Source: Chitinophagaceae bacterium (GTDB lineage: Bacteria; Bacteroidota; Bacteroidia; Chitinophagales; Chitinophagaceae). From it: a stretch of 33,282 nucleotides of DNA. Below are positions 4,521 through 29,454 of the stretch, piece by piece. The stretch spans positions 1 to 33,282 of the forward strand of contig JACCYQ010000007.1 of NCBI GenBank assembly GCA_013696395.1. Direction: 5' to 3'. Each line of letters starts with the position of its first letter. Within the stretch, counting starts at the first letter, position 1. The translations under genes and the position numbers were made by a program. The notes under the pieces are model-generated. The model did no database searches. It was not told where the DNA came from and saw only the letters and a program-made list of their open reading frames with translations.

Positions 4521-4543
4521 AAATAGGAGTAACCTCAACAATA

Positions 4544-4571
4544 AAACCCGCAAATTAAATTGCGGGTTTTT
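4544..4571 (+). terminator. Intrinsic terminator of dnaK
   Basis: Ten-base-pair stem AAACCCGCAA/TTGCGGGTTT (4544-4553 with 4560-4569), loop ATTAAA, followed by a short T run. It lies 23 bases after the dnaK stop. Confidence 0.9.
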
Positions 4572-4632
4572 CATTTTAAAAAACGTTCAACCCTTAACTT
4601 TATGAGGTAAACAAAAACCACTCAATAGAAAA

Positions 4633-5094
4633 ATGAAAAGATTTTTAAAATTTGCAGTGATCAGCATGGGCTGCATTCTTCTTTATTTTCCTGTCAGTGC
4701 GCTTTCAGACATGAATGCTATTTCTCCTGAATTCCTCAGTGTAAACACCAGTAAAACTCATTCTTTTACATTAAATCAAATAATTGAACTTACTCCCAGG
4801 AAATATAAACTGGTCACTGGTAAAAAAATGAGCCTGGCTCAAAAAATAAGTTTAAAATATTTACAGCATTCAATAAATCGCAAATTAAAAAATGGTCAAC
4901 CGGTGGACCTTCAACAGGTAAACCAGGATATTGATGCCACAGATTTTAATTTCGTTGGTTTTTTGATGGGCTTATTCTTCAGCATTTTTGGAGTTTTGAT
5001 TGCTTACCTTATTGGTGAACGGAGCAAAATAAAGTGGTCATGGGTTGGTTTTGGATTCGGAGCTGTTATTCTTTTACTCATTTTAATACGTTAA
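4633..5094 (+). CDS. Small membrane protein with signal peptide, unknown function
   Basis: A 153-aa protein of no function known to me. It begins with a signal peptide (MKRFLKFAVISMGCILLYFPVSA), then an extracytoplasmic or linker region with a basic stretch (RKYKLVTGKKMSLAQKISLKYL), and ends in two membrane helices (about residues 109-130 and 136-152) separated by the short basic turn GERSKIKW. The layout, leader then lysine-rich helix then membrane hairpin, mirrors the Pmp3-domain protein encoded 44 bases downstream, although the hairpin itself is not a clear Pmp3 domain. The basic segment recalls small Bacteroidota envelope proteins that I cannot name. It follows the dnaK terminator, so it has its own transcription; TAACTTTA (4595-4602) is one mismatch from the -7 consensus. 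Confidence 0.75.
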   Translation: MKRFLKFAVISMGCILLYFPVSALSDMNAISPEFLSVNTSKTHSFTLNQIIELTPRKYKLVTGKKMSLAQKISLKYLQHSINRKLKNGQPVDLQQVNQDIDATDFNFVGFLMGLFFSIFGVLIAYLIGERSKIKWSWVGFGFGAVILLLILIR

Positions 5095-5138
5095 TCATTT
5101 AATAATCACTGATCTCTTAAAACAAAAAATCATCCATT

Positions 5139-5549
5139 ATGAAAAAGAAGGTACTTATTTTATCGTTGGTATCGGCATTATTACTACAGGGCACTGCAGG
5201 TTTTGCCGTATCCTTACCATCTTCAACACCTGTAAGCGCAAATTCTGAACCGGATCCTGCTGCAGTTAAAGCTGCGGTAGCGGAATTTAAAAGCTTATCA
5301 AAAAAAGAAAGAAAAGCCAGGATCAAATCAGTTAAAGCTGAATTGAAAAAGGCAAAATCTAACATGAACGCAGCACCTTCTACTAACACGCTGTTATTGG
5401 TGATCCTTGCTATTTTATTGCCACCATTGGCTGTTTACCTTCACCAGGGGGAGATCAATAGCAAATTCTGGATCGCTCTTTTATTAACCTTGTTGTTTTG
5501 GATTCCCGGTATAATTTATGCATTGGTTGTAATCCTGGGTGGTGCTTAA
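5139..5549 (+). CDS. YqaE/Pmp3-domain membrane protein with N-terminal leader
   Basis: A 136-aa protein. Residues 1-23 form a signal peptide or signal anchor, about 45-75 is a lysine-rich helical segment (FKSLSKKERKARIKSVKAEL), and about 85-136 is a Pmp3/YqaE domain: LLVILAILLPPLAVYLHQGE, then FWIALLLTLLFWIPGIIYAL. The PPLAV and WIPGIIYAL motifs are diagnostic. Stand-alone Pmp3 proteins are about 50 aa and affect membrane potential and salt tolerance in yeast and plants; the role of the long bacterial form is not established. It probably shares a transcript with the preceding small membrane protein (44-base gap) and is followed by a strong terminator. Confidence 0.87.
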   Translation: MKKKVLILSLVSALLLQGTAGFAVSLPSSTPVSANSEPDPAAVKAAVAEFKSLSKKERKARIKSVKAELKKAKSNMNAAPSTNTLLLVILAILLPPLAVYLHQGEINSKFWIALLLTLLFWIPGIIYALVVILGGA

Positions 5550-5570
5550 TAAGAAGAACAAATTTTGGAA

Positions 5571-5605
5571 AAAAAAATCCATTCAATTTGAATGGATTTT
5601 TTTTT
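5571..5605. terminator. Bidirectional intrinsic terminator
   Basis: Stem ATCCATTC (5577-5584) with GAATGGAT (5590-5597), loop AATTT, flanked by A runs on the left and T runs on the right. It can therefore end transcription of the Pmp3-domain gene from the left and of the 56-aa membrane protein gene from the right. Confidence 0.88.
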
Positions 5606-5618
5606 GAAGATAAATTTA

Positions 5619-5789
5619 TTATATAAGATCCATGGCAATTACGAACGAAGTACCCCAAAAAGGTATAATCAAAGTAAGCCATTCCCAATGAGTAATTATA
5701 GCTACAGCCAGGGCAACTGTTGAAATGAAAAATATTATCCAGGCAAGTGATCTATTCTTTTTTTTGTTAGCTGTTTGTTCTTGCGCCAT
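5619..5789 (-). CDS. Small two-helix membrane protein (56 aa), unknown function
   Basis: Minus strand, ATG at 5787-5789 and TAA at 5619-5621. The 56-aa product begins MAQEQTANKKKNRSLAWIIF, has one membrane helix at about residues 15-33 and a second at about 37-54, and ends IAMDLI. Three things support it as real: a hydrophobic two-helix layout with a basic N-terminal cytoplasmic tail, an exact -7 element (TATTTTTG, minus strand of 5803-5810) giving a leader of about 9 nt, and a bidirectional terminator placed just beyond its stop. It resembles the many small 2TM-type envelope proteins of Bacteroidota, but I cannot assign a family or function. Convergent with the Pmp3-domain gene. Confidence 0.75.
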   Translation of the reverse strand: MAQEQTANKKKNRSLAWIIFFISTVALAVAIITHWEWLTLIIPFWGTSFVIAMDLI

Positions 5790-5802
5790 TATATTTTTTT
5801 TG

Positions 5803-5810
5803 CAAAAATA
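5803..5810 (-). promoter_or_regulatory. Promoter -7 element of the 56-aa membrane protein
   Basis: Read on the minus strand this is TATTTTTG, an exact TAnnTTTG, 13 bases before the ATG. It supports the reality of the short gene. Confidence 0.6.
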
Positions 5811-5865
5811 GGGGGGAATGAGTAAAACTAAAAATTACATGCATAAAGGATTAATTTGCGGGACC

Positions 5866-6249: not shown

Positions 6250-6257
6250 TACCTTTG
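6250..6257 (+). promoter_or_regulatory. Promoter -7 element of rpmI-rplT
   Basis: TACCTTTG, an exact TAnnTTTG. Using the spacing seen at rnpB, transcription would start near 6262, giving a leader of about 104 nt before rpmI. Confidence 0.6.
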
Positions 6258-6261
6258 CTGC

Positions 6262-6365
6262 CCGTTTAAAAAACGGTTCATTCCGAAAGGAATATTTCCT
6301 GAAAAGGCTCAATAAGTTTTTCCCGGTGGAAAACGCCTCAAGGGTGCACTCATAAAGCATTTAAA
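6262..6365 (+). promoter_or_regulatory. Structured 5' leader of rpmI-rplT (candidate autoregulatory RNA)
   Basis: Several hairpins occur in about 100 bases: CCGTTT/AAACGG (6262-6267 with 6271-6276); ATTCC-GAAA-GGAAT (6280-6293, a GNRA tetraloop); TTTTCC-CGGT-GGAAAA (6318-6333). The second hairpin competes with an alternative pairing GGAA/TTCC (6289-6292 with 6296-6299). In other bacteria this operon is controlled by L20 binding its own mRNA, so a similar role is plausible but inferred. The sequence does not obviously match the Bacillus or E. coli L20 leader. Confidence 0.5.
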
Positions 6366-6638: not shown

Positions 6639-6983
6639 ATGCCTCGTTCAGTAAATGCTGTTGCTTCTAAAGCTCGCAGAAAAAAAATATTAAAACAAGC
6701 CAAAGGCTTTTACGGTAAACGTAAAAACGTTTATACTGTAGCCAAAAACGTTGTTGAAAAAGGTATGACCTATATGTATGTAGGTCGTAAATTAAAGAAA
6801 AGAGAATACCGTGCATTATGGATTGCCCGTATTAACGCGGCCGTTCGTGAAGAGGGTATGAACTATTCACAATTCATCAACGCATTGAATAAAAAGGGTA
6901 TCACGCTGGACAGGAAGATGCTGGCAGATATAGCCATGAATAATCCAGAATCATTCAAAAATCTCATTGCACAGGTAAAATAA
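6639..6983 (+). CDS. rplT: 50S ribosomal protein bL20
   Basis: A 114-aa basic protein beginning [20 protein letters not shown], with [22 protein letters not shown] and the globular C-terminal part ([42 protein letters not shown]). These are hallmark bL20 motifs and the length is typical. bL20 binds 23S rRNA early in large-subunit assembly and, in several phyla, also represses its own operon by binding the mRNA. The structured leader ahead of rpmI and the spacer hairpin are possible targets. A terminator follows 20 bases after the stop, closing the two-gene operon. Confidence 0.99.
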
Positions 6984-7003
6984 TTGCCAGTGATTTTCAT
7001 AGT

Positions 7004-7036
7004 AAACCGGGTCAAATTTTTGCCCCGGTTTTTTTT
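7004..7036 (+). terminator. Intrinsic terminator of rpmI-rplT
   Basis: Stem AACCGGG (7005-7011) with CCCGGTT (7024-7030) followed by eight T residues. Confidence 0.88.
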
Positions 7037-7085
7037 ATGTAATAATGCGGGTTGTAAATTTTTCGTTTCTAATTTATCAAACCTT

Positions 7086-13484: not shown

Positions 13485-14342
13485 ATGAGGCAGCTGAAAA
13501 TTGCGACCCAAATTACTAACAGAGATTCACAAGCGGTTGAAAAGTACTTACAGGAAATCTCGAAAATTTCGATGATCACGCCTGAAGAGGAAACCACGCT
13601 TGCACAAAGGATCAAAATGGGCGATCAGCGAGCCTTGGACAAACTGGTTCAGGCTAATTTACGTTTCGTCGTATCTGTGGCCAAACAATACCAGCACCAG
13701 GGATTATCACTGAGCGATTTAATTAACGAAGGCAACCTTGGTTTAATCAAGGCCGCCCAACGTTTCGATGAAACCAAAGGTTTCAAATTTATTTCTTACG
13801 CCGTATGGTGGATTCGCCAATCCATTTTACAAGCGTTGGCAGAGCAGGGCAGATTAGTCCGCTTGCCTCAAAACAAAATTGGCACCTATAACAAAGCGAA
13901 CAAAGCTTACATGGCCTTTGAACAGGAGCATGAAAGAGAACCAAGCACCGAAGAACTGGCTGAATTGCTGGAGATGAGCGAAACAGAGATCAACAACATC
14001 TTTCAAAGCAATACCCGTCACACTTCACTGGATGCACCTGTGCATGAAGCGGAAGATGTAGCCATGGGCGATCTGCTTGAAGGTGGTGATGACACGGATG
14101 ATGATGTGATGAAAGATTCTTTACGCAATGAAATCCGCCGGGTTTTAAAATCTTTAAGCCCAAGAGAAGCAGAAATTGTGAATGCTTACTTTGGATTAGA
14201 TGGAGAAAACGGTGTTACCATCGAACAAATTGGTCAGAAGTACGATCTTACGAAAGAGCGTATCCGCCAAATCAAGGAAAGAGCCATTAAACGCCTGCAA
14301 AAAGCAAGGTACAGCAGTGCTTTAAAGGCCTATTTAGGTTAA
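13485..14342 (+). CDS. rpoD: Primary sigma-70 factor, short Bacteroidota type
   Basis: A 285-aa sigma factor beginning MRQLKIATQITNRDSQAVEK, the standard start of Bacteroidota SigA. Regions run in order: 1.2 (YLQEISKISMITPEEE), 2 (NLRFVVSVAKQYQHQGLSLS, DLINEGNLGLIKAAQRFD, FKFISYAVWWIRQSILQAL), 3 (EREPSTEELAELLEMSETEI) and 4 (LSPREAEIVNAYFGLDG, then LTKERIRQIKERAIKRLQ helix-turn-helix). Region 1.1 and the large non-conserved insert of E. coli RpoD are missing, as is normal for the phylum. It directs RNA polymerase to the -33 TTTG / -7 TAnnTTTG promoters seen throughout this window. It has its own promoter, a roughly 100-nt leader and a terminator. Confidence 0.98.
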   Translation: MRQLKIATQITNRDSQAVEKYLQEISKISMITPEEETTLAQRIKMGDQRALDKLVQANLRFVVSVAKQYQHQGLSLSDLINEGNLGLIKAAQRFDETKGFKFISYAVWWIRQSILQALAEQGRLVRLPQNKIGTYNKANKAYMAFEQEHEREPSTEELAELLEMSETEINNIFQSNTRHTSLDAPVHEAEDVAMGDLLEGGDDTDDDVMKDSLRNEIRRVLKSLSPREAEIVNAYFGLDGENGVTIEQIGQKYDLTKERIRQIKERAIKRLQKARYSSALKAYLG

Positions 14343-29051: not shown

Positions 29052-29450
29052 GTTACAAACCGGGTTATCGCGTCTCGTTAATAGCGGGAGGAGGAAAGTC
29101 CGGACAGCATAGGGCAATGTACCGGTGAACAGCCGGCTGCCGTTTAACGGTAAGAGATAGTGCCACAGAAAATTACCGTCCCTTTGGGGATAAGGGTGAA
29201 AATGTGAGGTAAGAGCTCACAGTATTGACAAGTAATTGTTTTTACGGGTAAACCTTGCATGCTGAAATGCCACATAGGCTTCGATTGTTATGGCCGGGTT
29301 TCCGGCTCTGACAGCTAAGCGGCCCGCTTAGTTCATTTTTGTGAATCGGGGTGGGTAGGCAGATTGATCCCTGCAAGTAATTGCCGGGACAGATAAATGA
29401 TAACCACCATGCTTATGCGTGGTACAGAATCCGGCTTACAGGTTTGTAAC
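29052..29450 (+). ncRNA. rnpB: RNase P RNA component
   Basis: A 399-nt gene for the catalytic RNA that removes 5' leaders from pre-tRNAs. The ends pair perfectly: GTTACAAACC (29052-29061) with GGTTTGTAAC (29441-29450), the P1 helix. The universal CR-I region GAGGAAAGTCCGGAC lies at about 29091-29105, and the matching CR-V region ACAGAATCCGGCTTA at about 29424-29438 together form P4. The interior AGAGATAGTGCCACAGAAA is the conserved P10-P11/CR-II-III area. The layout is bacterial type A. A short T run (29453-29457) follows P1, so P1 itself may serve as terminator stem. The 3' end is only 4 bases from the stop of the convergent CPBP gene. Confidence 0.97.
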
Positions 29451-29454
29451 ATTT

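Follow-up and report, generated by a model that had tools for sequence, protein, structure and literature searches.

How the genes for ribosomal proteins L35 and L20 are controlled in a bacterium whose rpmI-rplT pair is not preceded by infC, and whether the RNA ahead of them is a leader through which L20 regulates its own operon, are the questions raised by this locus. The window, by which we mean the whole 33,282-nt stretch of Chitinophagaceae DNA that was analysed, carries rpmI (L35; 6366-6563, + strand; a predicted ORF with a PF01632 match) followed by rplT (L20, the proposed ligand; 6639-6983, + strand, from the translation of a predicted ORF).

The rpmI leader and its conserved core

Positions 6250-6257 on the + strand read TACCTTTG, which has the form of the Bacteroidetes -7 box (TAnnTTTG); the consensus and its position, -12 to -5, are taken from excerpted text of PMC9723704. 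Box and published position together place the predicted transcription start at 6262 and give a leader of 104 nt, both as initially annotated, and the leader stretch would be transcribed from this box. The leader had also been called longer than most in the window. A box match at most 200 nt upstream was found for eight of the 14 window genes scanned, with predicted leaders of 17, 18, 29, 30, 37, 101, 104, and 180 nt. Five of these eight are 37 nt or shorter, in keeping with that description, but two others measure 101 and 180 nt, and the 104-nt rpmI leader is therefore unusual among the window genes and not unique. A sigma-factor-like gene at 13485-14342 is one with a long predicted leader (about 101 nt). 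On the 3' side of rplT, at ~7003-7033, an inverted repeat CCGGG...CCCGG followed by a T-run was noted by eye and is likely a terminator; the terminator scan did not return it, its loop presumably lying above the limit of the scan.

The best fold of the window's leader contains the three hairpins that had been described, all on the + strand: a 5' terminal hairpin CCGUUU/AAACGG (6262-6276), a hairpin AUUCC-GAAA-GGAAU with a GNRA loop (6280-6293), and a third hairpin at 6316-6334. Folded alone, the leader is no more stable than expected by chance (z -0.77; 39 of 200 shuffles equally stable), and its 5' part gives a z of -1.0.

Alignment with relatives, in contrast, delimits a compact conserved RNA element at 6298-6344 (47 nt), which stops 21 nt before the rpmI start codon and consists of two helices, P1b and P2, and a hairpin, P3. 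The 5' and GNRA-loop hairpins of the window lie outside it. All parts of the element are on the + strand. P1b pairs CCU (6298-6300) with GGG (6342-6344), with U-G as the inner pair; its register comes from the relatives, and its 3' strand was placed by column-pair covariation and sequence. In P2, taken from the MAFFT alignment, GGC (6306-6308) pairs with GCC (6335-6337). The 5' unpaired segment UCAAUAAGU (6309-6317) follows, and P3 pairs 6318-6323 with 6328-6333 around a CGGU loop (6324-6327). The pairs G6306-C6337 and G6307-C6336 and the dinucleotide A6314-A6315 within the unpaired segment are invariant in 102 of 102 aligned sequences.

Compensatory changes, which the initial annotation had proposed to look for by covariance analysis in relatives, occur in this core. 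In the sequence-only MAFFT alignment of the 102 sequences, 94.5% of the P2 and P3 cells are paired, against 72.2% with shuffled partners; 219 cells are altered on both sides, compared with 72 in the shuffles; and the covariation score reaches 0.657, where shuffles score 0.228 and slid structures at most 0.243. The paired-cell and shuffle figures refer to the unshifted alignment. Column pairs were then ranked by background-corrected covariation, with identical rows counted once (100 of 102 are distinct) and with the 5' arm of one subtype, type 2, shifted by script by one column, which affects P1 and leaves P2 and P3 as they were. The six pairs of P3 are the six highest of all 1,905 column pairs. 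The variable third pair of P2, which changes from C-G to U-A in 11 of 100 distinct rows, ranks 11, and the P1b pairs 11-60, 9-63, and 10-61 rank 15, 19, and 23, while the inner pair 12-59 ranks 104. Pair 11-60 is C-G in 95 rows and U-A in five, and pair 10-61 is C-G in 88, U-A in three, and G-C in three (100 rows each); at pair 9-63, 69 of 99 rows have a standard pair, and the window has a U-U mismatch. Ranks 7-10 and 12-14 are not consensus pairs (two are loop-column pairs and five separate the subtypes), and columns that do no more than distinguish the two subtypes also reach high scores in this measure. Without guidance, RNAalifold recovers P2 and all but one of the six P3 pairs. On an L35+L20 protein tree, which was built independently of the leader sequence, each P3 pair undergoes 20-47 state changes, one-sided ones included. 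We also considered an outer helix, P1a (conserved AUU/AAU), and rejected it; its pairs are standard in 79, 84, and 49 of 100 rows and show little covariation (ranks 50, 1,527, and 1,060 of 1,905).

For 6298-6345 of the window, the lowest-energy structure (-10.1 kcal/mol) keeps all three helices but places P1b and P3 in slipped registers; folding in the consensus registers gives -9.1 kcal/mol, less favourable by 1.0 kcal/mol. Slipped P3 sets a U-run opposite an A-run (6316-6322 with 6328-6334) and is 0.8 kcal/mol better, and the 3' strand of slipped P1b is 6341-6343, one base over. P1b is short, with three pairs of which one is G-U in the window.

The idea that the leader works as a switch between competing stems is not supported. 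Two mutually exclusive pairings can indeed be written at 6280-6299, but they fall nearly entirely outside the conserved core, and the 5' part of the leader, hairpin 6280-6293 included, has no sequence conservation in relatives. We rejected the switch because its stems are not conserved.

Distribution in the Chitinophagaceae and history of the locus

A first covariance model (R1) was built from 16 rpmI upstream regions, that of the window included, and run over 147 whole genomes of Chitinophagaceae. It matched 95 genomes, once each (E <= 0.001), and all 95 matches are on the rpmI strand with the model end 10-18 nt before the start codon; 16 of them are the training sequences and 79 lie outside the model. 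An L35 search located rpmI in 139 of the 147 genomes and gave no match in the other eight; an additional weak match in one genome (G080) was ignored. A permissive search of the other 44 rpmI loci returned nine lines, of which seven are weak copies at the same place (E 4.9e-5 to 0.045) and two (L131 and L022; E 0.25 and 0.66) were excluded from the count. In total, 102 of the 139 family rpmI loci carry the element, and L20 was detected in 101 of these carriers. The model searches did not detect it in the remaining 37, and, judging from these loci, related species can do without it. Two basal members of the family that lack it (L151 and L155) were seen to carry another kind of leader, in which a CCUUAGGAAAGG hairpin lies at most 110 nt before rpmI.

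The element was also found in 75 of 80 named L20 loci (E at most 2e-6), which had been kept from 570 candidates; their L20 is 80-90% identical, and many are titled Chitinophagaceae or one of its genera. In the 17 of these 75 loci that were measured, the element ends 229-358 nt before rplT. Carrier genera by title include Flavisolibacter, Flavihumibacter, Niabella, Niastella, Hydrotalea, Segetibacter, Ferruginibacter, and Sediminibacterium. R2, an enlarged model, matched 69 of 298 genomes in a sample of the order, 5 of 295 in the class, and 9 of 296 in the phylum, the samples overlapping. None of these matches fell outside Chitinophagaceae, under strict filters that divergent forms could escape. 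The half-site pattern described below occurs in five of 30 class loci from outside the family, at positions that look by eye like the infC end, these 30 being the best L35 scores among 106 genomes with L35.

All 102 carriers have a -7 box of the form TAnnTTYG no more than 110 nt upstream of the sequence covered by the model, compared with 10% of shuffles, and 95 of the 102 have the strict TAnnTTTG form. Since the box is this close in every carrier, the element would lie early in a predicted transcript of its own. Predicted leaders in the carriers are 74-150 nt long, with a median of 98 nt.

We also examined the position of infC. The initial annotation had noted that infC is not upstream of rpmI here, and the window genome (84% complete) indeed has a single infC match, on another contig. 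Its further argument, that the control elements of infC-rpmI-rplT operons could not be the same, is circumstantial, given that 19 of 102 carriers have infC upstream of the element on the same strand, at a distance of 98-676 nt. In the other 83 carriers and in the 37 non-carriers, infC was not found within the upstream sequence searched (1.1-1.5 kb at most; ~1.8 kb for the window). Outside the family, infC is 29-173 nt upstream of rpmI in 30 of 30 class loci (L270-L299, the same best 30 L35 scores), so it seems to be characteristic of the Chitinophagaceae that rpmI-rplT and infC are apart.

On the L35+L20 tree (137 rows; the two of 139 loci without L20 in tblastn were left out), presence of the element maps to one change with a support of 87, on a tree that is weakly supported and does not give direction to gain or loss. 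A single gain is favoured because there is one change on the tree and the element is absent outside the family; one gain would be the simplest reading of the two together. It is likely that rpmI-rplT acquired a private promoter within the family and that an L20 leader subsequently arose in one lineage.

Resemblance to the L20 site of 23S rRNA and mode of action

A profile of the conserved half-site (internal loop, GGYYC, short gap, AAG) has its best place in the whole E. coli 23S rRNA at nt 998-1011 (CUAAGGUCCCAAAG, 12.2 bits), a stretch that we take, by helix numbering, to be the H40-H41 region; the second-best place is nt 1569 (11.3 bits). L20 contacts helices 40 and 41 of 23S rRNA at their junction, according to excerpted text of PMC6962249. 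The leader's GG together with UCAAUAAGU resembles GGUCCCAAAGU of the rRNA (E. coli 1002-1012), and the invariant G-C pairs and AA would equal 23S nt 1002-1003 and 1009-1010. The GGYYC and AAG part alone has four equal best places in the E. coli molecule. We also scanned the relatives' own 23S rRNA, to which the match is weaker, in four of five rRNA loci, the fifth not matching the locating pattern; the site ranks 1, 7, 15, and 10 of 4,542-5,863 positions, and with the type-2 profile alone, which represents the window's subtype, it ranks 3, 19, 30, and 26 in the same four loci. Strand order, 5' to 3', is shared by leader and rRNA, and P3 stands where the next rRNA arm follows. An earlier idea, that type-2 leaders copy the GA/AA internal loop of 23S rRNA with strands swapped, was dropped, as the same-order GGYYC-AA arrangement scored best at the right E. 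coli place. Published L20 leaders are described, in the text excerpted from PMC7247131, as sharing two conserved parts that correspond to the rRNA site, an AA dimer and a stack of two consecutive G-C pairs, and this signature is present in 102 of 102 of our sequences. The leader thus appears to resemble the H40-H41 L20 site, a resemblance modest in strength. For rRNA mimicry the case is good but not conclusive, as the match is short.

Bacteroidota mRNAs largely lack Shine-Dalgarno sequences. In the mechanism we propose, free L20 would bind the element once 23S rRNA is saturated, and would clamp a structure ~20 nt upstream of the rpmI start codon. The clamped structure would hinder 30S loading and lower rpmI translation, and rplT translation would fall along with it by coupling. 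The leader probably represses translation of rpmI-rplT. The L20 leader of B. subtilis instead works by transcription attenuation (PMC10931766, excerpted text), and in some type-1 relatives a weak A/U-rich hairpin with U residues after it does precede the start codon. In the window, however, no G+C-rich hairpin with a U-run lies between the element and rpmI; the terminator scan reported no + strand terminator-like site in the leader, and no U-run follows the element, which makes attenuation less likely here. Overall, we regard an attenuating L20 leader as unlikely.

A second reading dispenses with a protein ligand and treats the RNA as an mRNA 5'-end stabiliser or a structured initiation spacer. 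The hairpins that accompany the element give it some footing. The sequences form two subtypes, set apart by the internal loop below P2 and assigned from one alignment column (type 1, 72 rows; type 2, 30 rows), and the window belongs to type 2. An additional hairpin, UAAUC/GAUUA, abuts the rpmI start codon in many type-1 relatives; it is exact in 42 of 72 and takes a compensated form, UAACU/AGUUA, in four of 72, and it extends into the 3' flank of the L20 element (for example in L055, L058, L061, and L070). The tails of type-2 leaders before rpmI fold no better than shuffled ones, so this hairpin cannot be the window's mechanism. Leaders also bear 5' hairpins of varying sequence: among the 50 leaders with a 5' part of at least 20 nt (52 of 102 had less and were left out), 22 have a strong fold (z < -2) near the predicted +1, and its sequence varies between species. 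L063, L066, and L111 are examples. Yet a stabiliser need not keep an unpaired AA and two G-C pairs in 102 of 102 sequences while P3 varies freely, and we consider a leader without a ligand very unlikely.

The conserved element could also bind another protein, L35 or IF3. The gene immediately downstream is rpmI, which encodes L35, and infC lies upstream within the examined stretch in the 19 carriers mentioned above; in the window genome, however, infC is outside the operon, the invariant parts fit both the published L20-leader signature (PMC7247131, excerpts) and the L20 part of 23S rRNA, and L20 is the known repressor of the operon in E. coli and B. subtilis (PMC10931766, excerpts). We judge a different ligand highly improbable. 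That the stretch is an ordinary AT-rich leader, as its insignificant single-sequence fold might suggest, has a negligible probability and is refuted by the conservation, covariation, and exclusive rpmI linkage seen across about 100 genomes.

Relation to known L20 leaders

Among these readings, we favour a bL20-binding ribosomal leader, and 6298-6344 very probably represents a new family of such leaders specific to Chitinophagaceae. The initial annotation's suggestion that rpmI-rplT is preceded by a new L20 autoregulatory element is supported at this level by the covariation, the strict rpmI linkage, the L20-leader signature, and the similarity to the 23S site. A comparison with the Rfam L20 leader models had been proposed at the same time. 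No family in Rfam 15 matches the window's leader, even at E 10, and none matched in the loci of 20 relatives; RF00558 reaches its gathering score neither in the window nor in those loci. The window as a whole gave seven chance-level Rfam lines, all outside the leader; the only line for the RF00558 family is one of chance level (15.2 bits, E 6) at 6954-7042, again outside the leader. RNase P RNA, class A, is located elsewhere in the window, at 29052-29454 (239.6 bits). By position and signature, the predicted leader is of L20 type and is not an RF00558 member.

L20 leaders described in the open-licence literature, as far as its excerpted text extends, are from Gammaproteobacteria, Firmicutes, and Deltaproteobacteria only; neither that text nor Rfam 15 includes one from Bacteroidota. 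The closest known systems share features with the present element and differ from it in others. The Firmicutes leader (RF00558, of infC-rpmI-rplT in B. subtilis) is likewise an L20-operon leader held to mimic the 23S site (excerpts of PMC7247131 and PMC10931766), while the leader described here precedes rpmI and not infC, has no Rfam match, and showed no terminator between element and rpmI in the window. The E. coli operator also controls rpmI-rplT, as ours presumably does, at translation, and also mimics the 23S site (PMC10931766, excerpts). It has two sites, a long-range pseudoknot and an irregular hairpin, whereas here, comparing on this element alone, there is one compact 47-nt element with its own predicted promoter and without infC upstream. 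A deltaproteobacterial candidate (Eckert and Weinberg 2020, PMC7247131) bears the same two parts, G-C pairs in succession and an AA dimer, on a scaffold of its own; it comes from another lineage, no Rfam family matched the present leader, and the likeness concerns these two parts as described in excerpted text.

A fuller evolutionary scenario, on which we are evenly divided, would have the L20 leader arise de novo once inside Chitinophagaceae, after rpmI-rplT had gained a promoter and begun to leave infC, with rRNA mimicry evolving convergently on a minimal scaffold of 47 nt. One large subgroup would have tied it to the second, start-codon hairpin. The 5' arm of that hairpin overlaps the 3' flank of the element, and through it L20 binding could be passed on to ribosome access. 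A Bacteroidota L20 leader would add one more apparent origin of such rRNA mimicry, with scaffolds differing among lineages, and an element this compact may serve as a minimal test object for what L20 binding needs. For the family, it would be a case of an operon gaining its own autoregulation, by one change on the tree, in a phylum mostly without Shine-Dalgarno sequences.
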